Below, piece by piece: positions 245 to 31,714 of a DNA stretch of 45,062 nt (the stretch's first letter is position 1; each line of letters begins with the position of its first letter). The position numbers and the translations under genes were made by a program. The stretch lies in the NCBI GenBank assembly GCA_946480785.1, contig CAMLLD010000055.1:1-45062 (forward strand), read 5' to 3'. The notes under the pieces were generated by a model. It made no database searches, was not told the origin of the DNA, and saw only the letters and a list, made by a program, of their open reading frames with translations. The DNA is from an uncultured Blastocatellia bacterium. GTDB taxonomy: Bacteria; Acidobacteriota; Blastocatellia; Pyrinomonadales; Pyrinomonadaceae.

Positions 245-2305
245 CTACCAGTTCGCAATGTTTAGTTCGATCTGCGTTGTAGTCCAGCCCCGACTCGGGT
301 ACGCCGCAGGGCTGAGATTTCGCATCCGCGGCTGATCATCGCTGATGGCGTCGAATAGTAGATCCAATCCCGACGGGCTGCGCTTCGCATCCTTCGTCCG
401 GCGATCTCCGCAGTCGAGACTCGGCATTTCGAGCCAGCGATAGTTCGCGCTTTTCAAGCTCGCAAAAACCTTCAGAATGTCGCGTCCCGTCTCATACCCA
501 TAGGGCAGATCCGCGCGCAACGGCACCAGCTCCTCGCAATGAGCGTCCAACTCCAAAAACAACTCCGGTGGCTCTGGAAACACTTGAGTTATGCCCCAAT
601 CCGGCTGCAGATCCAGCACGACGACGCGCAGCAAATTGTCCGAGAGATTCTTCACTCTCACAAACACCCAGTCGCCGGGTTTCACCACCGGCCCAATCTC
701 TTGCACGAACGGTATCGGCATCGGCTCCTCACCGTATTCAAACTCGTGCTGATAACCTGCCCATTGGACCGACAACTTTCGTGCAAGCGGCGAGCGTGTG
801 TCGTGATTGTCGATCTCCTGAATGATTTGATACTTGGTGAGATGTTCGAGCCGGCTCACAACTATTTGTCTCGTCTGGTCGGCAAGCGGCATATCGGGCG
901 TCAGTCTGTTACCGGACGAGTCGAGGATTTGCAGTTCATCATCTTCGCTGAACGCCACCTGATAATGCGCCGGCGTTTTTTCGTCCACCAGCTTCAACCA
1001 CGCATTCTGTTTGATCGCATCAACGATTGAGTCGACAAGTGACTCGTGCTTTTTCCAAATCTCTTCCTTGTCCGCCTCCTTCAGCAAACGCACGTTCTTC
1101 ACGAGATGAATTGCTCCCGGGTTAATCAAGACCGCCTGGTCTCCCGGTTCGACAGCTTCAATGCTCGCGCTTGTACTGCTGAACATGGCCCACGAGTCGG
1201 TTGCGCCCAGCCTTTCAACAGTAGCGACACCGAGACGCCCCTGCTCGTCATCGAGATCGCGCTTCGTCAATGATTGAATCGCGAACTCCGAACCACGACG
1301 CACGCCCTGCGCCTGGCCCACACTCAACAGGACCTGGCCACTGTCATCATCGACCGACGTGACGACCGCGGCATACGACGCCGGAATTCGATCGAGGCCG
1401 AACACGACCCGGTCACCGTCTCCTTCCAGATGCGGTGTTTGGCTGGCAAATTGACTGTGAACCTTCGCCATCACGCGGTTGTGAAGTTGCCGGTAAGTAA
1501 GACTGAGGCCCAACTCACCCAGAGAATTCAAAAACCAATAAGTAAGCGCGCCGTTACTCTCAACACCGTCGAAGGCATACTCATACGCCAGTTCCGACGG
1601 CCCGCACGCCGAGAGCACGACCGTTCCCGCCGAAGCAGGCACCCACGGCGCGCCACTCACATTCCGTGCGGTCGCTCCTCCGGTTTGCCGCCACGACTCC
1701 GCCAACTCGTCGATCGTTCCGACCAAACTGTCCGTCGGACGTTTGGCTTTATCGACCACGCCCGTGCCGCGAATTCTCGCATCCGGCCCACGCGTCATAC
1801 CGGAGGAATGACACGAGTCGAGCACCACGGTCACGAAGAGTTTGCGCTCGGCCATCATGCGCAAGTACCTTGCCAGCTCGAGGTCGCGGAAGTAGCGCGA
1901 GGCGGAACGGCCGATGTTTGTCGGTACCAGAGCTTCATCGAGTCCGTTCGACTTGAGCTGTGGCACAAGGCTGTCCACAACTCCTCCGTGCCCGGAATAG
2001 TGAATGTAGATCTGATCGCCAGGCTGGGCTCTATCGATCAAGCCGCGGAATCCCGCCACGATGTTTTCGTACGTGGGCCAAAGCGGGCGCGGTTCGGCCG
2101 GTTGCGTTTTGCCATTGTCGCTGGCCGTAAGTTTGAAAATGTTCTGGCTCGGCACGCGCAGTGTCGTGAGCAGGAACTCTTCTACGTGATTGATGTCTCG
2201 CACACAACCGGAAAGATCTCGATAGTAACAACCGTCCGGCAGTAGATTGTCGAGGTATTTATCAATGCCGATCAGTAACGCGTGGCAGTTTGGCGTGGGA
2301 CACAT
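245..2305 (-). CDS. Caspase-like (C14) peptidase with C-terminal DUF4384-like domain
   Basis: This 686-residue protein opens with a caspase/metacaspase p20-like domain (about residues 6-290). The catalytic dyad is visible as His106 in HYSGHGG and Cys165 in DSCHSSG, each after a hydrophobic strand, as in active family C14 enzymes. Prokaryotic members usually cleave after Arg or Lys rather than Asp. The C-terminal half contains a DUF4384-like beta domain (about residues 530-630, from the GDWVFVRVKN segment), a module often found beside bacterial caspases. No signal peptide or membrane segment is apparent, so it is probably cytosolic. It is the last gene of a minus-strand set with TPR-CHAT, sigma and anti-sigma genes, 24 bp after the anti-sigma gene. 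The last residues (IELNIAN) are repeated after the stop codon in the same frame, which is odd. The peptidase call is firm; the substrate is unknown. Confidence 0.9.
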   Translation of the reverse strand: MCPTPNCHALLIGIDKYLDNLLPDGCYYRDLSGCVRDINHVEEFLLTTLRVPSQNIFKLTASDNGKTQPAEPRPLWPTYENIVAGFRGLIDRAQPGDQIYIHYSGHGGVVDSLVPQLKSNGLDEALVPTNIGRSASRYFRDLELARYLRMMAERKLFVTVVLDSCHSSGMTRGPDARIRGTGVVDKAKRPTDSLVGTIDELAESWRQTGGATARNVSGAPWVPASAGTVVLSACGPSELAYEYAFDGVESNGALTYWFLNSLGELGLSLTYRQLHNRVMAKVHSQFASQTPHLEGDGDRVVFGLDRIPASYAAVVTSVDDDSGQVLLSVGQAQGVRRGSEFAIQSLTKRDLDDEQGRLGVATVERLGATDSWAMFSSTSASIEAVEPGDQAVLINPGAIHLVKNVRLLKEADKEEIWKKHESLVDSIVDAIKQNAWLKLVDEKTPAHYQVAFSEDDELQILDSSGNRLTPDMPLADQTRQIVVSRLEHLTKYQIIQEIDNHDTRSPLARKLSVQWAGYQHEFEYGEEPMPIPFVQEIGPVVKPGDWVFVRVKNLSDNLLRVVVLDLQPDWGITQVFPEPPELFLELDAHCEELVPLRADLPYGYETGRDILKVFASLKSANYRWLEMPSLDCGDRRTKDAKRSPSGLDLLFDAISDDQPRMRNLSPAAYPSRGWTTTQIELNIANW

Positions 2306-2329
2306 GAGAGTTTCTCACTGGTTTGAGAC

Positions 2330-3160
2330 TTACAAAATGGTGAAGTTATAGCCGCCGAGATCATCTACGCGTCCGTCACTCGCAATGCCCTTGACGAGCA
2401 GCCGATATTCTCCGGAACCGAGATCGCCGGCCGGAACCCTGATCACGAGCAGTTTCCGATTCCCTGAGCTAACGGGAACACGATCAGCGAGTGTAAAGAG
2501 TGTCGCGTCAGGCTCGCGAATCAGCGTCGTCTCATACTTCGCATACGAACCATCCTGGACGGGCAAGCGGAGCTGGACCACGGTCAACCCCTTCGGGATT
2601 GTCGCGCGCTGTTCCGGCACGTTCTCTCGCGGGTCCGATCGAAGTCTGAGAGCGGGAAGCTCAATTGCAAAATCGGATTGCATATCAACACCGGGCCCAT
2701 TCAGCGAAGCAACGGAACGGCTCAGTGACGTCGAGCGAATGGCCCAGATCCCGACTGCAACCGCGACGATCACCGTCGCGGCGACTGTCAACATCCAACG
2801 CGAGTCAACAGTTCGACCGAGCTTTGGCGGCGGCGCCGGGGTTACCATCGTAGCCGGTTCCATCACGGCGTCCGAATATTTTTTTAACGCAGCCGACATT
2901 TGCAACTTCTGCCTCTGTTCCGGGGTGCGTATCAATCGATCCGCAACGATCTCCGCCTCTTCGGGCGGGAGAATGTTGAAATAGTAATCTTCGAGCAGCT
3001 CGTCTTCGGTCATCTGGACCCGTTCGAAGAAGGCGGGCTCGCTGAATATCCGTTCCTCGAAAAGCTCACGTTCCGAGCCGCTCAGCCGCCCTAAAAGGTA
3101 GCTGCGAATATAGTTCTGATCTGGGTATTGCTCCTTCATTCGCGAATGCCGCTCATTCAC
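2330..3160 (-). CDS. Single-pass membrane anti-sigma-like protein
   Basis: The 276-residue protein has a helical, acidic N-terminal domain (about 1-100) rich in Glu and Leu, like the sigma-binding domain of anti-sigma factors but without the Cys/His zinc ligands of the zf-HC2 type. One membrane helix follows (about 122-142, in the LTVAATVIVAVAVGIWAI segment). A roughly 130-residue beta-rich domain after it would be periplasmic. It follows the ECF-like sigma gene by 30 bp in the same direction, the usual arrangement for a sigma and membrane anti-sigma pair. Inference: it holds the sigma factor at the membrane and releases it on an envelope signal. A second Met at residue 8 could be the true start. 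I found no strong Shine-Dalgarno sequence for either. Confidence 0.7.
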   Translation of the reverse strand: MNERHSRMKEQYPDQNYIRSYLLGRLSGSERELFEERIFSEPAFFERVQMTEDELLEDYYFNILPPEEAEIVADRLIRTPEQRQKLQMSAALKKYSDAVMEPATMVTPAPPPKLGRTVDSRWMLTVAATVIVAVAVGIWAIRSTSLSRSVASLNGPGVDMQSDFAIELPALRLRSDPRENVPEQRATIPKGLTVVQLRLPVQDGSYAKYETTLIREPDATLFTLADRVPVSSGNRKLLVIRVPAGDLGSGEYRLLVKGIASDGRVDDLGGYNFTIL

Positions 3161-3190
3161 GCCATCAACTAATATGATTTTGGCGTCAAT

Positions 3191-3781
3191 TCATTGCACG
3201 AGACTTTCATCCATGCATTTTTCCATACATTTATAGAGCGCGGACCGGATCCTGAATACCCGCACGCGCAGGTTTTCCACGTCCACACCGATTCTTTCCG
3301 CAATCTGCCGCCGAAAGTTGATCTTGGCCCGCTTGTCTTCCTGGTAATAGTCAATAATCAGATCACGACTGTCGGCGGGGAGTTCGCCAACGCACTTTTC
3401 CAGGCAGTCGAACTTGCGATCGATCTCGTCGGCATCATCGAGGCAAGGTTTACCACCAGCGAAACGCGACTCCAGCGAGTCTGGCAGGTTAGAAACGGTA
3501 TCCAGCCGGTGCCGCTCTTTTAACAACATCTTCGCCACGCCGTAAAAATAGAGCGCCGGATCGCCAGAATAGTTGATCGCGATCTCCGGCACCTTTTTCA
3601 TCACGCGGTCGATGGTTTCGTCCGCCAAGTCTTCCGCATCCCAATACCCGTTCCAAACGAACAGCTTCACCAAACTCTGCCGAATGCATTCATACTTGCC
3701 GCCAGGATCGTCGGTATTTGAGCCGAGCCAGCTCAGCAAACCATCCAACTTTTCTTTTGTAAGGACCAGGTGTTTGCGCAT
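3191..3781 (-). CDS. ECF-like sigma-70 family factor
   Basis: The product (196 residues from the ATG at 3781) has a helical N-terminal region with an acidic DLADETIDRVMKK segment that resembles sigma region 2. A C-terminal helix-turn-helix (RQIAERIGVDVENLRVRVFRIR, split here by position at about residues 155-180) resembles region 4. A longer reading frame starts upstream at 3856, but that would overlap the TPR-CHAT gene by 68 bp. The ATG at 3781 lies 7 bp beyond that gene's stop codon and gives the compact operon. The anti-sigma-like gene follows. Sigma factors sitting with CHAT and caspase genes suggest the island is transcribed by its own holoenzyme; the direct target promoters are not proven. 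Confidence 0.75.
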   Translation of the reverse strand: MRKHLVLTKEKLDGLLSWLGSNTDDPGGKYECIRQSLVKLFVWNGYWDAEDLADETIDRVMKKVPEIAINYSGDPALYFYGVAKMLLKERHRLDTVSNLPDSLESRFAGGKPCLDDADEIDRKFDCLEKCVGELPADSRDLIIDYYQEDKRAKINFRRQIAERIGVDVENLRVRVFRIRSALYKCMEKCMDESLVQ

Positions 3782-3788
3782 TCTTGGT

Positions 3789-6700
3789 CTAGGCGAGCTC
3801 TCTCGTTTCTGTTCGAGCGTTGCGTCGTAACCTTCGCCGGTAATAGTAGCCGCCAAGCAGCACGAGCACTAAAGCTCCCATCAGTGCTGCGACTTTCGCG
3901 TACGTCCTCGAACGATCCGGCTCACGCGCGATCGTTCCGGCGTATTCACCCTGAATCTCGAATGCCGCCCAGTAAAACGGGTGATGCCAGCGAGGATGCC
4001 GCCACATCTTCTCCTTCGCGGCGCGGAGGGCAGCCGCTGGTGATAGCCCCTCGTTGAGCATGGCACCGTAAAACTGTCGCATCAACTCAGTGGTGGCATT
4101 GTCATCTACTTTCCAGAGACTGGCGACGGTGCTTTGAGCTCCAGCATACATGAAGGCTCGCGTTAACCCGATAAACCCCTCGCCTCTGACGTTTTTCCCC
4201 AGTGCCGTGCTGCAAGCGCTCAGCACCACCAAGCGCGCCGACAGCTTGAGGCTGTAGATATCGTGGAGTTGAAAAAAGCCGTCTTCAGGCGAACCCGACT
4301 CGTTCACCATCGACAAAATGATACCGGAGAGTTCCGGATGCTCCGTATCGACGACGCCGTGAGTAGCAAAGTGTATTATCTGAAAACCTTCCAGCTCTTT
4401 ACTCGCGACGCGCGAACGATTCGCGTTGAAACCAAGAGCCATCACGCCCTGACCGCGCGGAACGAGACCGATGATGGCTTCACCCTCAAGCTTAGTCGAA
4501 GGCAATCGAGGAATCGACGCGCGATTGGCGACTGAAATGTCGCGCCCCGAACCACCGACGGCAACAACCTGTCCGTCGTCCTTCAGTGTGGACGGCGAGC
4601 GATTGTCTCGCGTAACGCGTGGATCAGTTTCAGCGAAAACGGGATCGGCAAAAACAGCCAACAGCTTGTCGGCTGTTGCGACGCGGAACTTTTGCTGGCG
4701 CAGCGAATAGAGCGTCGAAGCGGAAGGCAGATCGATGATTTCGTGCGTCAGTATTAAAGGCCGTGGTTCGCCGGAGTTATCGTTTGCAACCGTGGGTTCG
4801 GGTAAGGCTCCAAAGGGTACGAATTGCAGCGCGCCGTCCGTTACGAGCAACAACCGCTTGCCGGCAATTGCTGCCGCCAATGGACCAAGCAACTGATTAC
4901 TCAGCAATGCAGCTTGTCGCCAATACTCGCCATCCGCGGTCGCCACTCGTTTTTCGTAAGTCGGCTCGTCATCATCTGGAAGAGGTTGACGCGCGGTGAC
5001 GAGTTCATAGAACTTTCGTGCCGCACCCTCGAGCTCAGCCCGGCTCGCCAATTCGTAAACCCGCAGGTCTTTGTTACTGACGACCCAGACGTAACTCTTT
5101 TCTTCGCCCAGCAAATACTCGAGCAACACCGTATCGTCGTCGAGTAACTTCGCCTGAATCTCCTTCGTGTTCGGCAAGTCAGGTTTCGTCAACTCGGCGT
5201 AACGCGGACTCTGCGCTCGAATCCGGGCCTCGATCTCAGAATAGTCGTTCGTGAGCCCGCGCAGTTCTTTTTCGAGTTCGTTTGCTTCGCTCTCCGTCCG
5301 TTGGTTGTTCTTCAAACGCAAGTAATAGCGCCCGCGCGCACTGAGCTGCGCTTGCAGCTCGCGTTCACGTCCCAGCAATTCCGGCGACACGCCGGCGCGA
5401 ATATCGACCTTCGCCTCGGTGAGTATCTCTCGCAGTGAACGGGCGCGCGTGCTCTCGCTTGCCTCAAACGCGGCGGCGACCAGTTGCTGGTCCGAGTTCT
5501 GTTTGTAAAGCTGCATCAGCAGATCGACGTAGAAGGCGTAATACTCCTGCATCAACGCGAAGTAAGAGTAGCGGAGTTCGTATTGTGCAAGACTCGATCG
5601 CAGCGACTCGACGATCTTCATTGCTTCGCGAACCTCGGCGAGCGCCTGGTCCAACGAGCCCAGGCTTTTGTCGGCCCGCGCGATATTGACGCGCGTCGCA
5701 GCTTCGCCCGCGCGATCGTCGCCGGCTCGGTTGAACACCAGCGCACGATTGAAATACGTCTTCGCCACGGAGGCGTGCCCCGAGTGCTGATAGATCGCGC
5801 CGATACTGTTGAGCGTTTGCGCCTGGCCTCTGCGATCGCCGATCGTACGATATAGTCGCAACACGTCGTTCAGCAGGTTTAAGGCCTTCGCTTGTTGACC
5901 TTCACTGTCGAAAATCGTAGCGACGCCTCTCTGGGCGTAGGCTTGCAAGCGGCGGTTGAGGATCGCGCGACTGATCGCGATCGTTCGATCGTAGTGTTGC
6001 AAGGCGGCGGTTGAATCATTCATCGCCCGGTGAACGCGACCGACATAAAGCTCGGCCAGCGCTTCAAATTCGCGACTACCGATTCCCTGACACAACTGCA
6101 ACGCTTGCTCGTAATTGTCCAAGGCAGTCTTCAGATCGTTCGACTCTTCGTGGACGCGGCCGAGACCGTTAAGCGCCGCGGCCATTCCCTGTCGATCGCC
6201 GATACGTTCAAACACTCGCAGCGCTTCGGTGTGTGCGTCCAGGGCGAGTTGTCGTTCGCCGACAAACGAGTGGATTCCGCCGAGCGCGGTTTTGGTGAGT
6301 GCTTCACCTCTGATTTCATCGGTCACAGTCCACAATGGAAGGGACTTTTGGTAGTGTGCAGTGGCCGCCTCAACGTCGCCCATGTCGTAGTAGACGTAAC
6401 CGATATTCAACTCGGCCAACGCCTGCCCGCGACGATCGCCGGCCGTCGCCCACAACGCGAGCGCGCGGTTGAAAAAATCCATCGCCTGCTTCAAGTCGCC
6501 CAACGAGTAATGAGCCTCGCCGAGGTTGTTGAGAGTGGTCGCCTCCAACCGCCGGCGCGTGTTTGCCGGCGCCGAATCCGGCACTTGGCCGCGCAATTCA
6601 AACGCGTGGTTGAAGTAAGGAACTGCCTGCTCGTACTCGCTCAGGTAAATATGAACGTATCCGATGCCGTTCAACGCCTCGATTTCGTGAACTCGATCCG

Positions 6701-7400
6701 CATTGAGCCTCGCCTCTTTACGAGCTTGAGCGAAAAAATCGATCGCCTCTTTGTAGTCGCTCAGCATGAAGTGAACTTCGGCGATGCTTAGGAGCGCAGT
6801 AACTGCTTCGGGCCGATAAGTCGTCGTTGGTAGAGCCGATCGCGCTTCGGCGTATTTCTCGATTGCCGCTTGCAAATCATTTTTGTCCCACTGCGCGCGC
6901 AGACGTTCGGCCTCGAGAAACGCGGCGGCACTCTTCACGATGCGCGCGTCTTCCGCCGTCGCCGGCCGCGAAGTTTGGATAGCGACTTCATATGGCGTGC
7001 CGATGCTCTGCTTTTCAAAGGGCGTTACCGTCAAGTCATATGAGCCGGTCGCATCGCTTATAAATCGCAGCACCAAATCTTCGTATCTTCCGGTTCGTGT
7101 TTCAATGACTACCTGCCCAGTGGAGTCGCTCAAGCGAACCAGTAGAATCGCATCACCGTCGCGATGCAGACGCAACTCGACATAGTGTTGAACTGCTAAC
7201 TTGAGGCGCTGCGTTTCGCCAGTCTCCTTCACTACCAGATGGGCCAGGTCGGAGCCCGGATCGGCCGTAAGCAGCTCTTCGCGAGCTGCGGCGGCATTGT
7301 TGTCCACACTCGAAAGAGGACTAACGAGCAAGACACTCGTTAGCAAGATGGCTCGCAGTGAGGTTTGGTAGAAATCGAAAGGAACGCGGTCGAAGACCAT
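3789..7400 (-). CDS. Exported TPR-CHAT peptidase with C-terminal membrane anchor
   Basis: The protein is about 1203 residues from the ATG at 7400. A further in-frame TTG lies two codons upstream. An N-terminal hydrophobic stretch (RAILLTSVLLVSPLSSV) looks like a signal peptide. A beta domain (about 40-150) and roughly ten tetratricopeptide repeats (about 200-600, e.g. LNNLGEAHYSLGDLKQA) follow, then a helical linker and a CHAT (caspase family) domain. The CHAT dyad is His1014 in HFATHG and Cys1063 in LSACSTA. A transmembrane helix with a basic tail (about 1165-1200) ends the protein, so it should sit in the envelope facing the periplasm, if the signal is used. This exported architecture is common in Acidobacteria and cyanobacteria. 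The TPR region is likely the sensing or partner-binding part. It heads the sigma/anti-sigma/caspase operon. Confidence 0.88.
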   Translation of the reverse strand: MVFDRVPFDFYQTSLRAILLTSVLLVSPLSSVDNNAAAAREELLTADPGSDLAHLVVKETGETQRLKLAVQHYVELRLHRDGDAILLVRLSDSTGQVVIETRTGRYEDLVLRFISDATGSYDLTVTPFEKQSIGTPYEVAIQTSRPATAEDARIVKSAAAFLEAERLRAQWDKNDLQAAIEKYAEARSALPTTTYRPEAVTALLSIAEVHFMLSDYKEAIDFFAQARKEARLNADRVHEIEALNGIGYVHIYLSEYEQAVPYFNHAFELRGQVPDSAPANTRRRLEATTLNNLGEAHYSLGDLKQAMDFFNRALALWATAGDRRGQALAELNIGYVYYDMGDVEAATAHYQKSLPLWTVTDEIRGEALTKTALGGIHSFVGERQLALDAHTEALRVFERIGDRQGMAAALNGLGRVHEESNDLKTALDNYEQALQLCQGIGSREFEALAELYVGRVHRAMNDSTAALQHYDRTIAISRAILNRRLQAYAQRGVATIFDSEGQQAKALNLLNDVLRLYRTIGDRRGQAQTLNSIGAIYQHSGHASVAKTYFNRALVFNRAGDDRAGEAATRVNIARADKSLGSLDQALAEVREAMKIVESLRSSLAQYELRYSYFALMQEYYAFYVDLLMQLYKQNSDQQLVAAAFEASESTRARSLREILTEAKVDIRAGVSPELLGRERELQAQLSARGRYYLRLKNNQRTESEANELEKELRGLTNDYSEIEARIRAQSPRYAELTKPDLPNTKEIQAKLLDDDTVLLEYLLGEEKSYVWVVSNKDLRVYELASRAELEGAARKFYELVTARQPLPDDDEPTYEKRVATADGEYWRQAALLSNQLLGPLAAAIAGKRLLLVTDGALQFVPFGALPEPTVANDNSGEPRPLILTHEIIDLPSASTLYSLRQQKFRVATADKLLAVFADPVFAETDPRVTRDNRSPSTLKDDGQVVAVGGSGRDISVANRASIPRLPSTKLEGEAIIGLVPRGQGVMALGFNANRSRVASKELEGFQIIHFATHGVVDTEHPELSGIILSMVNESGSPEDGFFQLHDIYSLKLSARLVVLSACSTALGKNVRGEGFIGLTRAFMYAGAQSTVASLWKVDDNATTELMRQFYGAMLNEGLSPAAALRAAKEKMWRHPRWHHPFYWAAFEIQGEYAGTIAREPDRSRTYAKVAALMGALVLVLLGGYYYRRRLRRNARTETRELA

Positions 7401-7742
7401 TTTCAACCGTACACTTGTGCTAACACCCGCAGCTCCCGAGGAATGATCAAAGGGAAGCAGTTGAGAGTCTTTAGGGCGACTGAGTGGATTGTTTCTGGTT
7501 CAGAGGACGAAAGTGTAGCGCTTCCGTTGTGAACCAACGTCCGGAAGCCGACTACTTAACATGAAACGCGCACAAAATTCAATGTGGCGGCATGGATGTG
7601 GACGAAGTGGTGGAATGGGATAGCAAAGCGAAGGTGAGGCTTCGCTTTGTTCGCCAGCCGTAACTGTAATGCACTCGGCCGCCAGGCACGCTACCCACAC
7701 TTCTTCATGAACGGGCCTATCAACTAAACCCTCAACGCCAAA
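7401..7742. other. Intergenic region upstream of the TPR-CHAT gene
   Basis: This 342-bp spacer separates the repeat-protein gene from the TPR-CHAT gene. A minus-strand frame at 7500-7700 (66 codons) has no Shine-Dalgarno sequence and a low-complexity Cys/Pro/His-rich translation, so I do not call it. No copy of the GTAATGTTTT element found before neighbouring genes was seen here. The TPR-CHAT promoter should lie in this stretch, but I could not pick it out. Confidence 0.4.
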
Positions 7743-8109: not shown

Positions 8110-8122
8110 GTGAGGGAGAAGG

Positions 8123-9250
8123 TCAACTGCGATAGACGTTCTCGGCCACGATATTGGTTTCGCCTTCTTGCTTGATAACAATGTGTTTTCTCTGCTTCGG
8201 GTTTTTGCGCGTTGATTCGTCGACGAGGTTTGTGAAAAGCACGGGTATGGCCCAGTACGGAGCATGGTAACGCGTAATTCCCTTGCGAGCTTCCGTCATG
8301 CAGAATTCGAGCGAGCGCCGCTGTACCAGTACTTCATAAAAAACTCTCGCGAACTCGGCCGCGACATCATCTCGCACGACTGTGGACATCGCCACCACTG
8401 CCGGAACGCCGATGACGAGAGTGGCCTCCGCCACTCCCTGCGTGCTCTCTACCACCGACGGGACCGCCGTTTCGCAGCAATTGAGGAATAAGAGGCGCAC
8501 GCTCGTGTCCGTCAGAAACACGCCGAGCGTTGCCGAATCTATCAGATCCGCGCGGCCGGTCTCGTCTTCCAACACGAGATAACCACGCGAACCGTCGAAT
8601 ACGCCGTGACCAACGTAGTGGACGATGTCGTAGTCTGCTTCTCTCAACTTCGCTTGTAGAGATTCTCTGGTGGCATGAGACAGGAGATCGCAGTAGCCGA
8701 TTTCGCGACGTTTCCGCAAGCGATACAGGTTGTGGAGAATCGCCGCCGCTTCCGCGTCTACGTTCGGTAGCGCGGTGGCATTCCTGGGCGTGGCGGTGAC
8801 GAGCAGAACGTTGGGCGTCGAACTACCGTCGCGATAACGCGGCCGCCGATGATTCGACAAGCAACGCACGATCGGTGTGGTTATGGTTTGTGCGAGGTAG
8901 ACGTGACCGTCATGCATGATCTCCCACGGAACGGCGGCCAGCGCGGGCGATCTGATGTCGAGCCGCACTCGCAGCCCGCCTCCATTATGAATTGATCCGC
9001 GCGACGATTCCCAAAGACGCAGAATATCTCCGCTGAAAAGTGCGGCGAAAAGACGTGTGCCGACTCGCAACGTGTCGCGCGCAGTCGCGCGATCATCGGC
9101 GAGTGCCTGCTTCCACGCGCGAATCTCCGCAGCCGGAAGATCTAACTGTCTATGATTCGTTCGTTGGAGACTGGGCGCGTGTAATACCTCGGCGTAGTAG
9201 CCGGAAGTTTCGTCACCGGCGAGCTTTATCTCAAATTGCTCGTATGGCAT
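8123..9250 (-). CDS. Compact CHAT-domain peptidase
   Basis: The 375-residue protein has a small N-terminal beta and helical region (about 1-120, including the VPWEIMHDG segment typical of the start of CHAT-associated domains) and a CHAT domain. The catalytic residues are His215 in HYVGHG and Cys259 in LNCCETA. No signal peptide, membrane helix or TPR region is present, so it should be a cytosolic peptidase. A short tail (about 350-375, ending IKQEGETNIVAENVYRS) lies after the CHAT core and could bind a partner. The ATG at 9250 is preceded by GAGGG four bases upstream. It is transcribed away from the zinc-ribbon gene at 9426 and is followed by the repeat-protein gene. CHAT enzymes in defence systems are activated by partner proteins and cut specific cellular targets; the target here is unknown. 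Confidence 0.9.
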   Translation of the reverse strand: MPYEQFEIKLAGDETSGYYAEVLHAPSLQRTNHRQLDLPAAEIRAWKQALADDRATARDTLRVGTRLFAALFSGDILRLWESSRGSIHNGGGLRVRLDIRSPALAAVPWEIMHDGHVYLAQTITTPIVRCLSNHRRPRYRDGSSTPNVLLVTATPRNATALPNVDAEAAAILHNLYRLRKRREIGYCDLLSHATRESLQAKLREADYDIVHYVGHGVFDGSRGYLVLEDETGRADLIDSATLGVFLTDTSVRLLFLNCCETAVPSVVESTQGVAEATLVIGVPAVVAMSTVVRDDVAAEFARVFYEVLVQRRSLEFCMTEARKGITRYHAPYWAIPVLFTNLVDESTRKNPKQRKHIVIKQEGETNIVAENVYRS

Positions 9251-9301: not shown

Positions 9302-9314
9302 CGCAAAACATTAC
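9302..9314 (-). promoter_or_regulatory. GTAATGTTTT element before the compact CHAT gene
   Basis: Minus-strand GTAATGTTTTGCG, ending 54 nt before the ATG at 9250. CATCCATT (9285-9292) follows 9 bp later, as at the copy before the repeat-protein gene. With the plus-strand copy at 9340 it forms a 10-bp inverted repeat across the divergent promoter region. Confidence 0.55.
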
Positions 9315-9339
9315 CTGGCTCACGCGTTTCACCACCCGC

Positions 9340-9349
9340 GTAATGTTTT
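9340..9349 (+). promoter_or_regulatory. GTAATGTTTT element before the zinc-ribbon gene
   Basis: Plus-strand copy of the decamer, ending 76 nt before the ATG at 9426. It faces away from the copy at 9305-9314, with 25 bp between them. All three copies point toward the gene they precede, which suits a promoter element better than a symmetric operator. Confidence 0.5.
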
Positions 9350-9425
9350 CTTCGCCTTTCGCATAGTGAATTGAATCTTCCCCCGCAGATGAAATTGTAC
9401 GAAGTCTCTTTGTTCGGTGGACGTC

Positions 9426-12140: not shown

Positions 12141-12196
12141 AACTCCATTTGAAATGAGTATTGAACGTAACCGGAAGTAAGCCCATGGAGGAAAAC

Positions 12197-21258: not shown

Positions 21259-21260
21259 TC

Positions 21261-24200: not shown

Positions 24201-27200
24201 AGAGCGCCTTTAAAACGAATCCAGAATGAAATGCTGACGAGCGCATCGCTTTTTGACGTCGAGGATCAGTCCTTCTCGATACCGCTGCGGTTATCCAACG
24301 TCGATAACGACCGCTTACACTCAGCCTACCTGCGGCTCTTATCTGCTGAACGTCCGCTCGCGGACAACGAACTCGTGCGGTACGAGCGAGCTTTAGCAGC
24401 ATTGCCGGATGATCTCACAGCGAATCAGCAGCGCTCCAGTTCACGCCGAGCGCGTGATGGAGAATTGATCTGCAATGCTCATCGACTGACGCCGCCGCTC
24501 TTCGTTACTGTCGCTGAATTGCGCGCTGGGCGAGGACATGCGGATGAAGTGTTGTCGAAGCTGGCCGCCGTTCTCGGCTCTCGGTCGAAGGTCGATTACG
24601 AAACACAACTCCACATCAGTCGCGCTTGTGCGCAGATCATCGGGCAATTTCGTTTGCGCGAAGTGGGAGAGAAAGGTGGCCATCTACTTGGCGGATCCAG
24701 GAGCGATGTCGCGGATCGGGCATTGGTGTGGAAACTCGATGCGCAGGAAGGCGCGAGAGTCGCTCAGACCATTCCCTCACTCCCTCCCGAGCTGACACCC
24801 TTCACAAAACGGCCGCGTCCCGAACGGTTAGAGCCGGGTGACGTCGAGACATTGAAGTGGCTGCACGCGATCTGGCAAACGCGATACGTCGGCGATGAAC
24901 CATCAGCGACGCCCGTGCTGGAATGGGCCAGACAAAACCTCAATGACGAGATTGATTTCGCTCCCGCAAAGACTAGCTACGAGTTGCTTTCGGTTCAGCT
25001 CGATTGTTTGGAAGCGCTGGATCTCGCAACCGAGTATGAATTGCTGTTCAGGCCCAGTAAGTGGTTGCTGACACGATTGACACCCAAAGACTTTGCTGGC
25101 GGCGGCCACTTGTCGGCCGAGCAGTCACTCAGATTGTGGTTACGCTGGTTTGCACGCGACCGAGCGCAAGTTGCTCGAAATCCAAAGCCTCCGGAATGGA
25201 TCCTCACCGTCCTTGGCGAACGACGGGCGGCCGAGATCGCCCTGCACGAAGCTGATCTGCTCGCCCTTAGATTTCCCGAAAGAGCCGCTTCTCTCTACCG
25301 CCAGGCTCGACATTGGTTTGAACTGGTTGCCGATTTCACTAACGCGTTCGTGGCCGTCACTGCCGAAGGGATGTGTATGCCGGGAACTAAGGCGAAGGTG
25401 CTGGCGACGGAAGCAACGGAGATCTTCGATCTGCTTCGCATCAGCATGGCAGAGCCGGCTGTCGAATTGATCAAGCACCGTGAAAAGCCGCCTGAGAACT
25501 GGGCGCCGCAATGCTGGCGACCCTTACTCACCCGCTACTTGCTCTTGCAGGCAGCGGCAACCTCGAAACGCGACATCGCCTCAATCTCGAGCGAGATCAT
25601 TGAGAATTATCTGCCCGGCGCGATGTCCCGACGCTCTGATTCAATCGACACCCCGGTGAAGTGGTCCGCCGATCTGGCGACGTGGCTGACCAACGCCGTT
25701 CAGCCTCCGACCGTGTTGAGTCGCTTCTGGAGTGCAACCAAGCAAGTTGGCAGCGTGATATTGGTGCTGGCCTCCATCTTTGTGATTATCGGCTTGCTAT
25801 TTCGCGCTTTCCGCTGGGCCTTCAGTTTCGTTGTTCCCACTTTCGCTAGACACAATCAGGGTTTGCAATTCGTAACCCTCGCACTGGGCGTGACCACATT
25901 AACCCTGGCGATTCGCCTGGTGAGTAAAGTACGGCGACAGAAAGCGAGTCTCATACACACAGCTGCCGAATCTCTCGACCTCACGGTATCCGAGGAAGCG
26001 CCGGCCGAAGAAACCGTAGCGGAGTATTCGACGTGGAAGCTCTGGTTAGACTTCGCTCTTGTCTGGATCTTTTTTGCACTCTTCATCGGACCTTACTTCA
26101 GCGAGTTGGTCCAACGTTGGGGTCCGCCTCTACTCGGCGGAATCGTTGGCGCCGCCGCAGTCCTCAGCATGATTTACGTTTTCCGGGGACGCTTTTCCCG
26201 ACTCACCGACTACGTGACCGAGATCTTCCTCGTTCTTTATTGGCTCGTCTTCACGAAAATCTGCAAGCTGCAACTTACGATTTCTCCTGCTACACATGAA
26301 AGCACCTCCACCTATGAAACGCCCTCCGAAGTGCCGCCGCTGAATGTTCGTTTGCGACGCGAAGTAAGCGGGAGGATTCTCGGTTTACTGTTGGGCTTCT
26401 CCACCAGAGAGCTGACGCTTGACAAACCAATTCAGGCGACTGGCTTGGAGCCATACGACGCTTTACACGAAGAGTTCTTCGCCAAATCAGTACAACGCAC
26501 GCGCAGTGAAAGGCGGATGTTATTGGGCCTTTATCCGTTCGGCGGCAGCGTCTCCAAAGGTTCCGCCTTGCCCATCAGGAAGCCTCAGTCTGAATTCCTT
26601 ACCGGTCTCAACCTCTCCTTGCTTCGCGACGGGTTCGGATCATTTGCGAAGTTCGTTCGCAGGCACCCGCTGCGAGTGGAGATCGACATACCGGAAGGTC
26701 CCGCGAATGGCGTGTGTTGGGAAGCCATCGTCCACACTGATCCCGACTCCGTTGACGAACGCGACTATGCAACCTCTGCCTGTTATCGACGGGCCCTGAT
26801 TCAACGACGCCGGATGCGCGAACGGACGAAAGAATTGTCCGGACTTTTCTTTGGTGAAAGTGAACTCGCACGCTCGCTGGTCACGAGTTGGCCCAAAGAT
26901 AGCTTTCGCGTTGCTTCGAGGGACGTGCTAGTCGAACACCAACCACAGATTTCGATCGTCCACCTCGTCGGCGGCATCGAAAGCAGTTACACCAGTGTGG
27001 GCATTCGACTCGAGGAAGAAAGTGCGCGGCTGAACACCGCGATGACGGAAACAGTCGTTGCTTCCGATTCGCTGATTCGAGCCGAGGATCTCGTTCGTGC
27101 GTTTCCGAATTTACAAATCTGTGTGCTTCAGGAAGAGCCGCGGCCGATACGCGCTCAGCGCCTCGACGGAGATCGCCGCGACGCTTACAGCGCGCGTCTG

Positions 27201-27473
27201 TTTGCTTCACAAATCGCCGCCCTCGGCGTTGCGTGCGTGCTCGCGCTACCTCCGCTCGACAAAGCCTGGGCGGCGGAACTGTTAGCGAGCTTTACGAACG
27301 TTTTGACTCGCGACGAAATCAGTAGATCTGAATTGCTCGTGACTCTGACCGCTGCTCGCCGCCGGATTGACGAATACATTCGTGAACAGAACGTGAGCAG
27401 GGAGACGCAACAGGAGTTACCACAAGACATCTGTCTGTACCTGGACACGGAATGGAACGGTCGCCTCATATAG
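21261..27473 (+). CDS. Giant membrane STAND NTPase with degenerate C-terminal CHAT-like domain
   Basis: The protein has 2070 residues from the ATG at 21261; an in-frame TTG two codons earlier overlaps the previous stop. The N-terminus (about 1-110) looks like a winged-helix module. A STAND-type NTPase follows: Walker A GAGGVGKT at about 269-276 and Walker B RVLLIVDTCEEL at about 383-394. A very long helical region (about 560-1480) could be TPR-like but has no clear repeat. Four or five membrane helices lie at about 1497-1665. The last 380 residues resemble a CHAT domain (HPLRVEIDIPEG lead-in), but the catalytic His segment reads VHLVGGIES and the Cys segment reads ICVLQEEP, so both catalytic residues are missing. 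It is likely the energy-using sensor of the operon, tied to the membrane, with a pseudo-CHAT domain that docks CHAT partners (inference). Confidence 0.82.
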   Translation: MDAEPSVSLETYEKLIEQKTAEAKSRYRSRKLEAPDSNQLLWTALLPGWTIPLAQASGFPADDVTGYFDNLQKQHIVQKSELRDENDKQQATLYTMDEVARTDLINAYLESDTRYERLKTTLGEIGSSILDATGLRARLNNTPERLFDQLANATPAVARFAVLAAHATNRTALVAEFESRVELAFRRRESAAIRDWINTALPFSSLLLRLGDDSMKQALQRASQRVILLRREETDRRHLTNFYQRDEQLKAFEELMTGDDSSWALHFLGAGGVGKTMLMRKITVDWAKKYDAVAARVDFDYLRAEYPTLDPGMLLWAFSQELRAYANSESIRFFNKADRTFEDLRSQIQSEIQKGVRERATDRREFADAISAYCDALRLIPQRVLLIVDTCEELAKIGMGLTPVQNIHETFRILRALHDGPATLKDGPAQPGNGVPSLRVIFSGRRPLAKAGIDWVCPNAAQLDERPFLKLSQISGFTKPEAESFLRGTLKVDPKLIPAIIKRSPETCNAIKIESTKVLFKRDKKPRFNPYDLKLYADWSKEAPPPTVTQILETPPATQYVELRVIRRLHHESLKEALPAVALLGHFDRRVLQHVFPRKTPDQIEELFELLQQEEWINQRSVQDEAEGSNLILDIEPGIRTRLFVYYKDNAALRDIQPLAAEYLEKLTLEGNPSRHDWSLFDAALTVLEADRDRERVVRWWKQVDALMFANCLPEWIRNVTDRMQNEGGAAARRDPDAPSDVPPESRLRPAVLATYSSALLRSTPRIELRNAWRELKDVWVEMLKSAGTLADQMPELEARARAGFISASLQSGETTLDPYEIRRFWDMVRKFAAGPYQALIVTLQVYASIVAAFEALVEYAETRTWSERTIDPFTRKDLLELERLFAIPRETFKDKPQIKQLAGFALCLLGRAVAVLEPFNHFESNPNLEPDDFYLFVRALDLCEFAKPTPGKTAPWLDWVPPEDIASRVRLEFIRVSGARAPLKRIQNEMLTSASLFDVEDQSFSIPLRLSNVDNDRLHSAYLRLLSAERPLADNELVRYERALAALPDDLTANQQRSSSRRARDGELICNAHRLTPPLFVTVAELRAGRGHADEVLSKLAAVLGSRSKVDYETQLHISRACAQIIGQFRLREVGEKGGHLLGGSRSDVADRALVWKLDAQEGARVAQTIPSLPPELTPFTKRPRPERLEPGDVETLKWLHAIWQTRYVGDEPSATPVLEWARQNLNDEIDFAPAKTSYELLSVQLDCLEALDLATEYELLFRPSKWLLTRLTPKDFAGGGHLSAEQSLRLWLRWFARDRAQVARNPKPPEWILTVLGERRAAEIALHEADLLALRFPERAASLYRQARHWFELVADFTNAFVAVTAEGMCMPGTKAKVLATEATEIFDLLRISMAEPAVELIKHREKPPENWAPQCWRPLLTRYLLLQAAATSKRDIASISSEIIENYLPGAMSRRSDSIDTPVKWSADLATWLTNAVQPPTVLSRFWSATKQVGSVILVLASIFVIIGLLFRAFRWAFSFVVPTFARHNQGLQFVTLALGVTTLTLAIRLVSKVRRQKASLIHTAAESLDLTVSEEAPAEETVAEYSTWKLWLDFALVWIFFALFIGPYFSELVQRWGPPLLGGIVGAAAVLSMIYVFRGRFSRLTDYVTEIFLVLYWLVFTKICKLQLTISPATHESTSTYETPSEVPPLNVRLRREVSGRILGLLLGFSTRELTLDKPIQATGLEPYDALHEEFFAKSVQRTRSERRMLLGLYPFGGSVSKGSALPIRKPQSEFLTGLNLSLLRDGFGSFAKFVRRHPLRVEIDIPEGPANGVCWEAIVHTDPDSVDERDYATSACYRRALIQRRRMRERTKELSGLFFGESELARSLVTSWPKDSFRVASRDVLVEHQPQISIVHLVGGIESSYTSVGIRLEEESARLNTAMTETVVASDSLIRAEDLVRAFPNLQICVLQEEPRPIRAQRLDGDRRDAYSARLFASQIAALGVACVLALPPLDKAWAAELLASFTNVLTRDEISRSELLVTLTAARRRIDEYIREQNVSRETQQELPQDICLYLDTEWNGRLI

Positions 27474-27497
27474 CATAAGTCAAAGGAGTCGGGACGA

Positions 27498-30371
27498 ATG
27501 TCGCTCTTGGATTCAATCTCGCAATGGATCGATAAAGATCGGGAACAACTCACCTATAGCTGGATTCCTCAAGCGCAAGTTGACGCGCCGACGGCAACGC
27601 GGACACTGACGGCCGGCGTTCACTACATCCGTCTCCGCCTTGCGAGCATGTGTCTCAAGAAACAGACCGAGTGGTTCACGTCCTGGTATCCGGCGGTCCA
27701 TTCCGTGGTGCGGTTCGAATTTGGTAACCAAGTCGTAGAGATTCCGAACATCGCCGACGAAGCCAAGGTGGCTATGCAACGTACTCCTAACGGGAACATA
27801 GTCGCGCGAAATTTTGTGCTCACACCGTTGATGCCTTTTCAGGGAGGCATCGTCTCACTCAGCGCCGGATTGTTTGCCGTCCAGGGGCAGAATTATCTGA
27901 AGTCGGTGCTGAAGGTATTGGGAAAGTTTTCGAGCATGTTGAGCGTGCCGCAACTCTCACTTGCTTTGAACGTGGCTGAGCCGTTGGTTTCAGGCATTCA
28001 GGAAATATTCACCACCGCGAGCACGGGTATGCACCTCGGATTGCACGACTCGTTTTCAGAGGGACAGTTGCAGGACGGCTACTTTGCCGTGGTCCGTCGT
28101 CCGGCAGGCGCAGTCAAGCTCAATGAACTTTTTGTTGTCAATGACGTGCTTCATCAAGGCACGAGTCTCACGAACTCGCAACCATTTGCAGCGGCGGATC
28201 ACATGCTCTTCCGAGTCGAGTTACTGGATAAGCGTGACGACTGGGAAGGTTTGAGTTCGATTCAGGAACCTTTCAACGACGCGCTCAGGGCCCTGCCGGA
28301 TCAGACTCAGGCAACGCACTTCATGCGCACGGCGCTATTGCGCGCTACGTTATCACCCGACTTGACGGCCGTAGACAAACGCCGAGTTGTCGATCGCTTG
28401 CAGGAAAAGTATCAGCAAGCGAAAAAGATGCTTAGTTTCAGCGGCGCGGTTGAGACGACGGAAACACTCAAGCAGGTTATGCGGCAGCCAATGTCGGTGG
28501 AGTTAGCACTGGGACAAGGCGTGCCGACAGTTCCTGAAGTCTTTGCCTTCGGAGACTCAGAGAACGGACGTGCTATGCGACGCGCTGTAAATCCATACGA
28601 TAGGCTCGGCAAGGTACTTGGTACACGGGGTGGTCAAAACGTGAGCGGCCGTTTCTACGTTGAGCAAGCCTTCGAGGCCGGGAGAGTAGCCGGGACCAAA
28701 CTAATCGATTTGGACGAGCCCGAGTCGCCGTCTGCGAAAAAAGCTTCCTTCTACTTTGAAACGATAGGAGACGGAGTGCGAGGCAATCGCGTGAAGTTCG
28801 GCGCTGCGTTTGATCTCAGTTTCAATTACGGCGTCAACGGATCTCCATTGCTCATCATCGTCTCCGGCAAAGAGCTCTCGAAGTTAGTAGAAAGTGAGAA
28901 GGCCGAACTGGACGTCATAGTTATTCCGCGTGGCTTCACCCTGACAGACAGCAAATGGGCCCAACGCGCAACCTTCATCGACGGCGTGCTCCAGAACGAC
29001 GTCGTCTTTCATCTAAAGGCGCCGACTGAAGCCGTTGACGGCGCGGGCCTGAACATAATCTTCGAAACGAAAGGCGCAACGCTATACGAATTTTTCATTC
29101 CTTTCGAAATCGGAGCAACTCTCGATGACGCGGACGATACGCAATTCGAGGCGCCAAGCTTCGATCTTGATGATGTGGCCGTCGCGCGTGGATTCGAACA
29201 ACGCACGGCCCGCTTACTACTCTTCGCAGACGGAGAGAAACTGGTCGGGAGTTTCGAGAACCTCGACACGGAGGTCTCGTTTCCGATCCAGACTAAAAAC
29301 CTCACGCGTTCGTCTTTGGCTGACAGCCTGGCAGCGATCAAAGAGATTCTCGAGCCCGTAGCTTCACACACGATCTGGAACATCCTCGACGATCCGCTCG
29401 GAAAACCCGGCAACGCGGAACTCTTTGAGGGCTTCGTCGAGCAAGTGGCTACGGCGGGCTGGCAGTTGTACGAAAGCCTCGCCAGCGATCCGGAATTTGC
29501 GAAGGTCCTGAGCGCAATCGAGAGTCTGCCCCCGGGTAGCACGTTGAGCATCAAGACTGACTGCGCGTTTCTTCCTTGGGAGATCCTGTATCCCTCCGAC
29601 TTCAACTGGAAATATTCGCCGGAGATCAAAGCTCAACAACCAGTCCAGCCGCAGAGTTTTTGGGGCAGCCGCTTTGTCATCGAATGTCTGTTATCGGGTG
29701 CGCAGCAGACCTACAAGGTTCCCGCGATCACTCATAAAAATAGCCGGCCGTATGTGAGCCTTAATATTTATCCGCCGCTGGACGAAGATTTTCAGGGCCG
29801 CGAGTTTCTTCCCGGCGAGTCACACGAAAAGTTGCGGGCGGAGTTAGAGCCATTGATGCAGGCGGAATTGCACCGGAACGAAGCCGACATCAGACACGTC
29901 TTCGACGCGGCGAACTACAAGCCCACTGTGATCTACTTGTTGTGTCACGGCCAGAACGACAGAGCGCTCGATCCGAAGCAGCGCGAAAAGCTCGAGATAG
30001 ATAAGGAAAAATTCGTCGAGCCCGCTCAGGTGTACGTCAACAATAAATATCCCTGCGGGCCGATCATGTTTTTGAATTCGTGTAGCTCGGGCGCGTTTTC
30101 TCCTTTAGCGTTCTCCAGCTTCTTGACCAGATTTCGCAACAAGAACGCGGTCGGACTTATCGGCACCAGTTTTCCCGTGCCCATAACCTTCGGCTCGGCT
30201 TTTGGCCAGGAGCTAATACGCCGCTACCTGAAAGATCACCAGCCAATCGGACAAGCTCTCTACGAGTTGAGACGCGAGCAGATGATGAACGGGAATCCGA
30301 TTGGCCTGTTCTACACACTCCAGTGTCCGGCGGACATTACCTCGTTTAAACCAGAGGAAGTGACAATATGA
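27498..30371 (+). CDS. CHAT peptidase with large unrecognised N-terminal region
   Basis: The 957-residue protein has a C-terminal CHAT domain from about residue 655: FLPWEILYPSDF lead-in, His817 in IYLLCHG and Cys862 in LNSCSSG, so it should be active. The first 650 residues match nothing I recognise. They include beta-rich parts (about 30-110 and 420-570) and a hydrophobic but not clearly transmembrane stretch (about 115-180, with GGIVSLSAGLFAVQG). The ATG has AAGGAG ten bases upstream. It lies 24 bp after the giant STAND gene and shares a 4-bp ATGA overlap with the phosphoesterase gene. The N-terminal part probably gives target or partner specificity. Confidence 0.8.
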   Translation: MSLLDSISQWIDKDREQLTYSWIPQAQVDAPTATRTLTAGVHYIRLRLASMCLKKQTEWFTSWYPAVHSVVRFEFGNQVVEIPNIADEAKVAMQRTPNGNIVARNFVLTPLMPFQGGIVSLSAGLFAVQGQNYLKSVLKVLGKFSSMLSVPQLSLALNVAEPLVSGIQEIFTTASTGMHLGLHDSFSEGQLQDGYFAVVRRPAGAVKLNELFVVNDVLHQGTSLTNSQPFAAADHMLFRVELLDKRDDWEGLSSIQEPFNDALRALPDQTQATHFMRTALLRATLSPDLTAVDKRRVVDRLQEKYQQAKKMLSFSGAVETTETLKQVMRQPMSVELALGQGVPTVPEVFAFGDSENGRAMRRAVNPYDRLGKVLGTRGGQNVSGRFYVEQAFEAGRVAGTKLIDLDEPESPSAKKASFYFETIGDGVRGNRVKFGAAFDLSFNYGVNGSPLLIIVSGKELSKLVESEKAELDVIVIPRGFTLTDSKWAQRATFIDGVLQNDVVFHLKAPTEAVDGAGLNIIFETKGATLYEFFIPFEIGATLDDADDTQFEAPSFDLDDVAVARGFEQRTARLLLFADGEKLVGSFENLDTEVSFPIQTKNLTRSSLADSLAAIKEILEPVASHTIWNILDDPLGKPGNAELFEGFVEQVATAGWQLYESLASDPEFAKVLSAIESLPPGSTLSIKTDCAFLPWEILYPSDFNWKYSPEIKAQQPVQPQSFWGSRFVIECLLSGAQQTYKVPAITHKNSRPYVSLNIYPPLDEDFQGREFLPGESHEKLRAELEPLMQAELHRNEADIRHVFDAANYKPTVIYLLCHGQNDRALDPKQREKLEIDKEKFVEPAQVYVNNKYPCGPIMFLNSCSSGAFSPLAFSSFLTRFRNKNAVGLIGTSFPVPITFGSAFGQELIRRYLKDHQPIGQALYELRREQMMNGNPIGLFYTLQCPADITSFKPEEVTI

Positions 30372-31714
30372 ACGACAAGACCGTAACGCTCATCATCAGC
30401 GATCTGCACGTTGGCGGAGGAGAAAAGGATCCCGGCGACGATCATGTGTTCGACCAAAATCAGTTGAGAACTTTTGTAGACGAACAGGCCCAGACACCGG
30501 AAGGCAAAAAGGGCGACGTTGAATTGATCATCAACGGCGACTTTCTGGAATTTGCGCAAGTCTCCTCCAGTGTTTACAAGCTCGGCTCGGCCAGGTACTG
30601 GTGCTCGGAGGCGGAATCGCTGCAGAAGCTGCAAACGATCCTTACCGGACATCCGGACATTTTCGAAGCGTTCAAAAGATTTCAGGATTTAGGTAACCGT
30701 GTGACGATCGGCGCCGGAAACCATGACGTGGATCTCTATTGGCCCGCAGTGCAGGAACAACTGCGCAAGGTCGGCGGTCCCATCAACTTTGAAACCGGCG
30801 AGGTCTGGTACTCTCGTTACCAGAACAGGCTGCGCATCACGCATGGGCATATGTTCGATCCGGCGAACAAGTTCGAGCGCTGGAACGATCCGATTATTCC
30901 CAACGCTGACGGCGGCGTCGCGCGGTTGGAGATGTGTCCCGGAACGTTGTTCATGGTGAAATTCGTCAACTGGCTCGAAGAGAATGGTTACCCGTTCGCC
31001 GACAATCTGAAACCGGTCACGGCGTTGGGCAGAATTCTTTGGGGAGAAAAGAAGCTGGGTTTCCTGACCGTCGGTTGGATGCTGACGAGATTCACCACCC
31101 GTCATCCGAAAGTAGCGGCCAATATCAAGGAGCTAAACCAGCAACTGGGCCAAAAGCTGGTCGAGAAAATCAAATACGATCCGGAATTTGCGGCCGAGGT
31201 CACGGAATTGTACCGCCGTGTTCGCGATCCGCAAGCCACGGTAGAGGCAGTGCAATTGACTCTCGACAACGAAGACGCGCTGTTTCAATTTCTGACTGAG
31301 TTGTTACCGCGACTGGACCCGCAGGAATGGATGCCGGTATTCGATCGTTTCAGTCTCGGAGGCTCGTTGGGAATCCACGGTCCGGGCCGCACGCTGGCGA
31401 TTCAGGCGGGCAATAAGGTAGACAAAGAGTTTCTTTGGCAAAGGGCGGACGAGCAGTTTTTGCTCGACGGCGGAACGCAAATCATCGTCATGGGTCACAC
31501 CCATCAACCCGACGAAAGGCGCTCATCCACGGGCGGCGTTTATTACAATCCGGGTTCGTGGACGAGGTTTGTGGACTACGAACAGCACCCGGACCTGACG
31601 TTAAGCGACCTCACCAACGAAAAGGACTTCAGTTACGAGCTAAACTTCATCCGGGTCGAGCAACTCAACGACTCGCGCCTGACAAGCGAGAAAGTTACCT
31701 ACCGGACGCCCTGA
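30368..31714 (+). CDS. Calcineurin-like metallophosphoesterase
   Basis: The 448-residue protein has all the metal-binding motifs of the family in order: SDLHVGG (Asp12, His14), NGDFLEF near 57, GNHD near 118, HGH near 160 and GHTH near 376-379, followed by YYNPGSW. It is larger than a typical 250-residue member; an insertion at about 180-330 has helices and could bind a substrate or partner. No signal peptide or membrane helix is seen. The substrate cannot be read from the sequence; the family includes phosphodiesterases, nucleotidases and nucleases. The ATGA overlap with the CHAT gene shows it belongs to the operon, and it is the last gene of the island. Confidence 0.88.
   Translation: MNDKTVTLIISDLHVGGGEKDPGDDHVFDQNQLRTFVDEQAQTPEGKKGDVELIINGDFLEFAQVSSSVYKLGSARYWCSEAESLQKLQTILTGHPDIFEAFKRFQDLGNRVTIGAGNHDVDLYWPAVQEQLRKVGGPINFETGEVWYSRYQNRLRITHGHMFDPANKFERWNDPIIPNADGGVARLEMCPGTLFMVKFVNWLEENGYPFADNLKPVTALGRILWGEKKLGFLTVGWMLTRFTTRHPKVAANIKELNQQLGQKLVEKIKYDPEFAAEVTELYRRVRDPQATVEAVQLTLDNEDALFQFLTELLPRLDPQEWMPVFDRFSLGGSLGIHGPGRTLAIQAGNKVDKEFLWQRADEQFLLDGGTQIIVMGHTHQPDERRSSTGGVYYNPGSWTRFVDYEQHPDLTLSDLTNEKDFSYELNFIRVEQLNDSRLTSEKVTYRTP

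Follow-up and report, generated by a model that had tools for sequence, protein, structure and literature searches.

Three apparently independent peptidase modules in an acidobacterial gene cluster, one a Zorya-related motor cassette with a putative protease effector

Results

We analysed a window of 45,062 nucleotides from an uncultured Blastocatellia bacterium (contig CAMLLD010000055.1, positions 1 to 45,062), in which an initial annotation had proposed the stretch 245 to 31,714 as one undescribed conflict system of peptidases and NTPases. The content is indeed conflict-system-like; the island as a single system is not supported, and the 31-kb stretch is best read as three peptidase modules, clustered here but independent of one another, whose parts recur apart. 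Module A (245-7406, minus strand) comprises an extracytoplasmic function (ECF) sigma factor, an anti-sigma factor, a TPR-CHAT protease and a caspase. Module B (8123-16663) combines a short CHAT protease on the minus strand with four plus-strand genes, encoding an AAA+/STAND-like protein lacking Walker A, a protein of tandem SPFH domains, and ZorA-like and ZorB-like motor subunits. Module C (17415-30371, plus strand) holds gluzincin-like, CHAT/P-loop, membrane STAND and CHAT proteins. We give about an even chance to the fuller proposal that the three modules are independent and that module B is a five-gene, Zorya-related, ion-driven envelope sensor with a protease effector, working as outlined below.

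For module B, the gene set and order, conservation, protease exchange, motor signatures and predicted folds are documented. The ZorA-like gene was read in six genomes (G001, G002, G003, G575, G645 and G528), and the order protease, adaptor, SPFH, ZorA-like, ZorB-like is kept in all five that are readable; G528, whose contig starts just before the ZorA-like gene, was excluded from this count. A scan of genome contigs yielded three relatives among 100 pattern-matching stretches. ZorA-like matches are sparse, at 1/396 and 1/162 genomes (G001 in each), 2/148 (G575, G528) and 3/42 (G645, G002, G003), in samples that overlap and with at most three candidates scored per genome in the 396-genome motor search, where misses are possible. 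Plasmids and phages gave no match; in viral contigs the search for the ZorA-like protein returned 14 pattern matches, none a true relative. The protease slot is occupied by CHAT enzymes in the window and in loci L001 and L027, both acidobacterial, and by trypsin-like enzymes in L002, L003 and L033, from the Thiomargarita/Beggiatoa order; the L033 enzyme matches the PADLOC LmuA, RT-protease and Avs1b models. L002 and L003 carry additional small genes between the adaptor and the SPFH gene.

The motor subunits give module B its Zorya signature. The ZorA-like protein (14496..16007, plus) matches PADLOC ZorA3 at 9e-12 and has four hydrophobic regions, with T190 and S230 invariant. For the ion-motor pair of the initial annotation, 35 of 36 aligned ZorA-like members, the window's included, hit a single PADLOC ZorA3 model at 1e-3 or below (the 36 were selected among 120 listed of 146 matches). 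The window's protein scores far under the cut-off of NCBIfam ZorA, and reaches 5e-4 with Pfam MotA_ExbB, also under cut-off. Against solved structures, the best 60 of 154 matches of the ZorA-like profile consisted largely of coiled-coil noise; among them, ZorA 8qyd was matched in the tail only (E 0.15). The ZorB-like subunit (16040..16663, plus) carries a GPGTD motif with Asp 20 at its transmembrane helix and an OmpA-like domain (0.004, under cut-off). GPGTD opens a hydrophobic segment in 7/7 ZorB-like proteins examined; five of these match PADLOC ZorB at 4e-12 or better, that of L001 is marginal (0.0075) and the window's own gives no match. In Zorya, as PMC11890865 describes, the ZorB Asp packs on a ring of ZorA Ser/Thr residues and is crucial for defence. 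Up to E 0.1, PADLOC models of ZorC, ZorD, ZorE, ZorF and ZorG matched none of 15 window proteins.

The 375-residue CHAT protease (8123..9250, minus; PF12770, 5.3e-30; dyad H215/C259) ends in a short C-terminal tail, and L027 has a relative in the equivalent gene position (E 7e-24). In favour of filing it in module B, CHAT2-like frames elsewhere (five, in L020, L021, L023 and L038) extend 512-1028 residues beyond the match start without such a tail; the first of them in L038 is CHAT plus TPR. The 907-residue adaptor (9417..12140, plus) has cysteine pairs at its N-terminal end, Zn-ribbon-like by eye, followed by a disordered linker, an AAA+/STAND-like domain that lacks Walker A, and a helical superhelix. 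A STAND-like fold is predicted, no Pfam match was found, and the Walker A pattern occurs in 0/17 aligned family members, the window's included. The 782-residue protein (12161..14509, plus) is predicted to fold as a tandem of at least three SPFH/Band-7 domains, which places it in the SPFH superfamily, with a C-terminal coiled coil and no membrane segment by hydropathy. Its fold matches include the FtsH-HflKC protease complex; by sequence, the SPFH profile gave no match to solved structures.

A possible link between protease and adaptor lies in look-alike motifs, varying by locus, that are shared by the C-terminal end of the protease and the linker of the adaptor. Across four systems the matched pairing tops all 24 with tails of 20, 25 or 30 residues (combined shuffle p of 0.017, 0.016 and 0.0008, respectively), and across six systems 2/720 pairings, the matched one included, attain the matched total at each tail length. 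The matched tail of L027 scores 27 and 34 at 25 and 30 residues, above controls, and L002/L003 differ from L033 by a TIG to TTG change on the protease and adaptor sides alike. A test with 45-residue tails gave p of about 0.003 for L002 and for L003. Tail matching is suggestive at the level of sequence, and we take homotypic recruitment of the protease via tails as a lead. Several observations weigh against it. Taken alone, the L001 pairing is not significant (0.21-0.43), its tail scoring better with the L033 linker than with its own, and the window pairing lies at the border of significance (0.02-0.17). The three trypsin loci are related and match across one another, and control tails reach 24 on the L027 linker, which equals the matched L027 score (24) at 20 residues. 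The 45-residue test, an earlier one run against the whole N-terminal region, gave a weak result for the window (p 0.04-0.08, from another alignment) and a non-significant one for L001; the later tests were not blind, windows and the three tail lengths having been picked after the sequences were seen. The placement of the protease itself is also somewhat weakened, as it is divergent in the window and codirectional with the rest in the other five loci.

How module B is triggered, passes on its signal and activates its protease, what the protease cuts and whether this serves defence can be inferred as follows. An inner-membrane, peptidoglycan-anchored ZorA/ZorB-like ion motor would be coupled to a protease in place of a nuclease or helicase. 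Envelope perturbation, most likely phage entry, would release or alter the motor, and the coiled-coil tail of the ZorA-like subunit would act on a cytoplasmic tandem-SPFH scaffold. The scaffold would in turn change the state of the degenerate STAND-like adaptor, whose N-terminal linker motif, resembling the protease C-terminal tail, may gather and activate the CHAT (or trypsin-like) protease; cleavage of cell targets would then stop the infected cell. A bolder formulation, in which module B founds a new class of motor-driven immunity with an ion-powered ZorAB-like rotor that senses envelope damage, a tandem-SPFH cage that relays the signal, a dead-NLR adaptor, tail-to-tail protease templating and exchange of caspase-like and trypsin-like enzymes in one slot, is tentative, and we consider it possible rather than probable.

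A real rival is that module B serves envelope stress or protein quality control, with a TolQ/ExbB-type channel, an SPFH scaffold and a protease that clears damaged envelope proteins. The FtsH-HflKC complex among the SPFH fold matches and the OmpA-like domain would fit such a role, as would the nil return from plasmids and phages, by which mobility lends no support to a conflict function. Yet the motor protein matches ZorA3 at 9e-12 against 5e-4 for MotA_ExbB (under cut-off, and from a different library), its sporadic distribution in the overlapping samples is unlike that of a housekeeping gene, and protease exchange and the STAND-like adaptor resemble conflict systems. Sporadic occurrence, together with the matches of the trypsin-like enzyme to defence models, makes us lean towards a conflict role for module B and regard quality control as rather unlikely.

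Whether the three modules act together was assessed from their shared elements and recurrence. The 10-mer GTAATGTTTT occurs three times in the window (0.01 expected), twice in the divergent intergenic region 9305..9349 (9305-9314, minus; 9340-9349, plus) and once at 8100-8109 (minus). These copies sit upstream of a repeat open reading frame (ORF), the 375-residue CHAT gene and the 907-residue gene; within the window, none lies upstream of the sigma, TPR-CHAT or caspase-arm genes. GTAATGTTTT, the shared element proposed to unite the two arms, links the short CHAT protease with the motor operon rather than one arm with the other. It is a local element, since even its first 8 bases are nearly absent from four relatives (L001, L002, L027 and L031), with one occurrence, inside the SPFH-like gene of L002. 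No RNA element in Rfam was matched at gathering scores. The repeat ORF (7740-8024, minus; 94 residues) consists of a 45-bp tandem repeat encoding five copies of the 15-residue unit PRGGGDVSGKGATPK. Its product could be a protease substrate. As a core part it was rejected, finding no tblastn match in the loci fetched for comparison, and a tandem-repeat scan of 8 loci, with arrays left untranslated, recognised no counterpart array.

Recurrence across genomes likewise separates the modules. The caspase is matched in 10/396 genomes of one phylum (at most two candidates scored per genome), and none of these ten has a motor match in the same sample, within the limit on motor candidates given above; a renewed motor search with fuller scoring in two of them, G337 and G389, again found none. 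No relative of A or C was detected by tblastn in the fetched flanks of the five complete module B genomes, flanks that are short in some (14 to 38 kb in all), and a C-like block occurs in one genome without a motor match. The co-occurrence expected of one block is thus largely contradicted, homologues mostly occurring independently without a joint neighbourhood. The exception is G528, which weighs against independence: in its locus L029, a distantly related ZorAB-like pair (26% identity) is followed some 6 kb on by a cassette resembling module A. This cassette comprises ECF sigma, TPR-CHAT, C25 and TIR genes, and where module A has its anti-sigma factor it has a gene that matches no Pfam family. 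Because of G528, the modules may cluster, with A-like and motor genes as neighbours, an adjacency most simply explained if conflict genes tend to cluster. Within 17 kb of that locus (L029:295-17226) we also observed a TPR-S protein beside the ZorAB-like pair and the ECF sigma/TPR-CHAT/C25/TIR cassette.

That the entire 31 kb forms one coordinated system, its sigma factor switching on all three modules, draws on the continuity of the genes, on the GTAATGTTTT copies common to repeat ORF, CHAT gene and B operon, and on the G528 neighbourhood. Separate recurrence of the modules led us to discard it, and the lack of GTAATGTTTT upstream of module A genes and of a motor match in the ten caspase-bearing genomes (few candidates being scored in each) speaks against it too; we hold it to be very improbable. 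Slightly less far-fetched is cooperation of B and C in this genome, with the membrane STAND protein of C as sensor and B as motor arm. The B operon and C are codirectional, and modules B and C each encode a CHAT as well as a P-loop-like protein that lacks Walker A. Against this, the C-like block of G530 stands without a motor match, module B occurs in five genomes whose fetched flanks show no relative of C, and a DUF4256 gene and a 192-bp gap separate the two here, so that we judge cooperation quite unlikely. Three independent modules remain the best reading.

By ORF and domain scans, the gene order from left to right is, on the minus strand, caspase, anti-sigma, ECF sigma, TPR-CHAT, the 94-residue repeat ORF and the 375-residue CHAT; on the plus strand come first the 907- and 782-residue proteins, ZorA-like, ZorB-like and DUF4256, then the gluzincin-like, CHAT/P-loop, 2072-residue STAND and 957-residue CHAT proteins and a metallophosphoesterase. 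The genes listed in the initial annotation are present with the catalytic residues claimed, as judged from Pfam matches and aligned domains: four CHATs keep their His/Cys dyads and the caspase its own, and the dead CHAT at the C-terminus of the STAND protein has lost both His and Cys. The tandem SPFH protein, metallophosphoesterase, DUF4256 and repeat ORF had gone unnamed there. Several family matches (sigma, anti-sigma, NACHT, OmpA and MotA_ExbB) miss curated cut-offs. Some close homologues (P0002, P0035, P0089 and P0151) are labelled Pyrinomonadaceae in their sources, which points to an acidobacterium as the probable host.

In module A, the caspase (245..2305, minus; 686 residues) matches PF00656 at 1.7e-18, with dyad H106/C165. 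The proposed sigma/anti-sigma pair rests on NCBIfam matches each under its curated cut-off, at 9e-10 for the ECF sigma factor (3191..3856, minus) and 1.5e-5 for the anti-sigma factor (2330..3160, minus), which has one hydrophobic segment. As tblastn at 1e-5 detected no relative of either in any fetched locus, locus comparison leaves their linkage untouched. The TPR-CHAT protease (3789..7406, minus; 1205 residues; CHAT 3.6e-67; dyad H1016/C1065) has hydrophobic segments at both its N- and C-terminus and relatives in L020, L021 and L029. In L021 (G389, 3760-12139) TPR-CHAT, a C25-like peptidase, a caspase and a CHAT-bearing gene follow in succession; in L020 (G337, 8709-14697) TPR-CHAT, a C25-like protein (match under cut-off) and a caspase do so, and a CHAT-bearing gene lies some 6 kb further along. 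No tblastn match to motor or STAND proteins was found within these two loci, and their row of TPR-CHAT, C25-like and caspase genes has the look of a separate peptidase cascade.

Module C opens with a 483-residue protein (17415..18866, plus) whose HEIGH at residue 202, followed by EE about 43 residues on, agrees with the annotated gluzincin-like protease; the assignment is one of motif, the sequence search of solved structures having given no useful match for any of the three module C-side proteins searched, this one included. The 802-residue protein (18850..21258, plus; CHAT 8.9e-25; dyad H242/C292) shares with the 907-residue adaptor the absence of Walker A that had been annotated for two P-loop domains, its own such domain being assigned on a weak AAA_16 match (0.015). 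The 2072-residue STAND NTPase (21255..27473, plus; NACHT 6.5e-6, score 26.5 against a cut-off of 26.7) carries the Walker A GAGGVGKT at residue 271, which makes the annotated activity plausible, and about four hydrophobic segments at residues 1498-1643. The 957-residue protein (27498..30371, plus) ends in a CHAT/C25 domain (Peptidase_C25, 6.2e-8; dyad H817/C862). Locus L037 has tblastn relatives of all four (gluzincin-like 6e-48, 802-residue 7e-98, STAND 1e-84, 957-residue N-terminal part 2e-58), the gluzincin-like one likewise without Pfam match. G530 has gluzincin-like, 802-like, STAND-like and 957-like genes in the order and strand of the window, the last short and with an internal stop; this genome is absent from the matches of the 148-genome motor search and is taken as searched without match. 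The 957-residue protein is matched in 3/145 genomes, G605 and G557 at the CHAT end only.

Beside these modules, the DUF4256 gene (16653-17222, plus; PF14066, 1.9e-93) overlaps the 3' end of the ZorB-like gene and precedes module C; it was rejected as a system part, with no tblastn relative in fetched loci, and is apparently a passenger. The calcineurin-like phosphoesterase gene (30368..31714, plus; PF00149, 2.5e-6) overlaps module C, and tblastn at 1e-5 found no relative of its product in the fetched loci. A calcineurin-like phosphoesterase (1.4e-7) is also found downstream of the ZorB-like gene in L003 (Parabeggiatoa, 11213-12754), without a tblastn link to that of the window. Outside the island, an ankyrin-repeat gene (42299-44994, minus) adjoins a gene with TPR and polysaccharide-export/SLBB domains.

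Discussion

If the proposal for module B is true, it would point to the motor as a general envelope sensor whose outputs can be exchanged, and motor-based and caspase-like immunity would be joined in one machine; the cassette makes possible signalling from the ZorA tail to a soluble effector testable. Of the combination annotated as unlike any canonical system, module B stands out as a conserved cassette whose union of motor and protease is described in none of the open-access papers listed.

Modules A and B recall known systems in part. Like the TPR-CHAT of type III-E CRISPR (Craspase), module A has a protein with TPR and CHAT; unlike it, this protein bears hydrophobic N- and C-terminal segments and neighbours sigma, anti-sigma and caspase genes (no search was aimed at a CRISPR array or gRAMP). 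With the SPFH protease scaffolds HflKC-FtsH, prohibitin and flotillin, module B shares the SPFH fold, a coiled coil and association with a protease gene, whereas it has at least three SPFH domains in tandem, no membrane segment by hydropathy and a CHAT or trypsin-like protease. Bacterial amyloid motifs have reportedly been treated by Dyrka in 2020. STAND/NLR defence with proteases recruited by EAD or amyloid motifs resembles module B in pairing a protease with a STAND-like protein, possibly via look-alike tails; in that setting, PMC10907252 proposes that homotypic EAD8 contacts recruit a trypsin-like protease. The module B adaptor differs in lacking Walker A and any Pfam match and in being genetically tied to an ion motor.

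The closest comparison is with Zorya, in which a flagellar-type motor has been adapted for defence and the effectors described for types I-III either act on DNA or belong to other kinds. Module B resembles it in a ZorA-like/ZorB-like motor with the conserved Asp, invariant Thr/Ser, coiled-coil tail and OmpA-like domain. The type-specific components of Zorya, as PMC11890865 gives them, are ZorC and ZorD in type I, ZorE in type II and ZorF/G in type III. In module B, which matches none of these, their place is taken by a protease, a STAND-like adaptor and a tandem SPFH protein. Judged by its genes, module B is Zorya-like in its motor and falls outside Zorya in its effectors.

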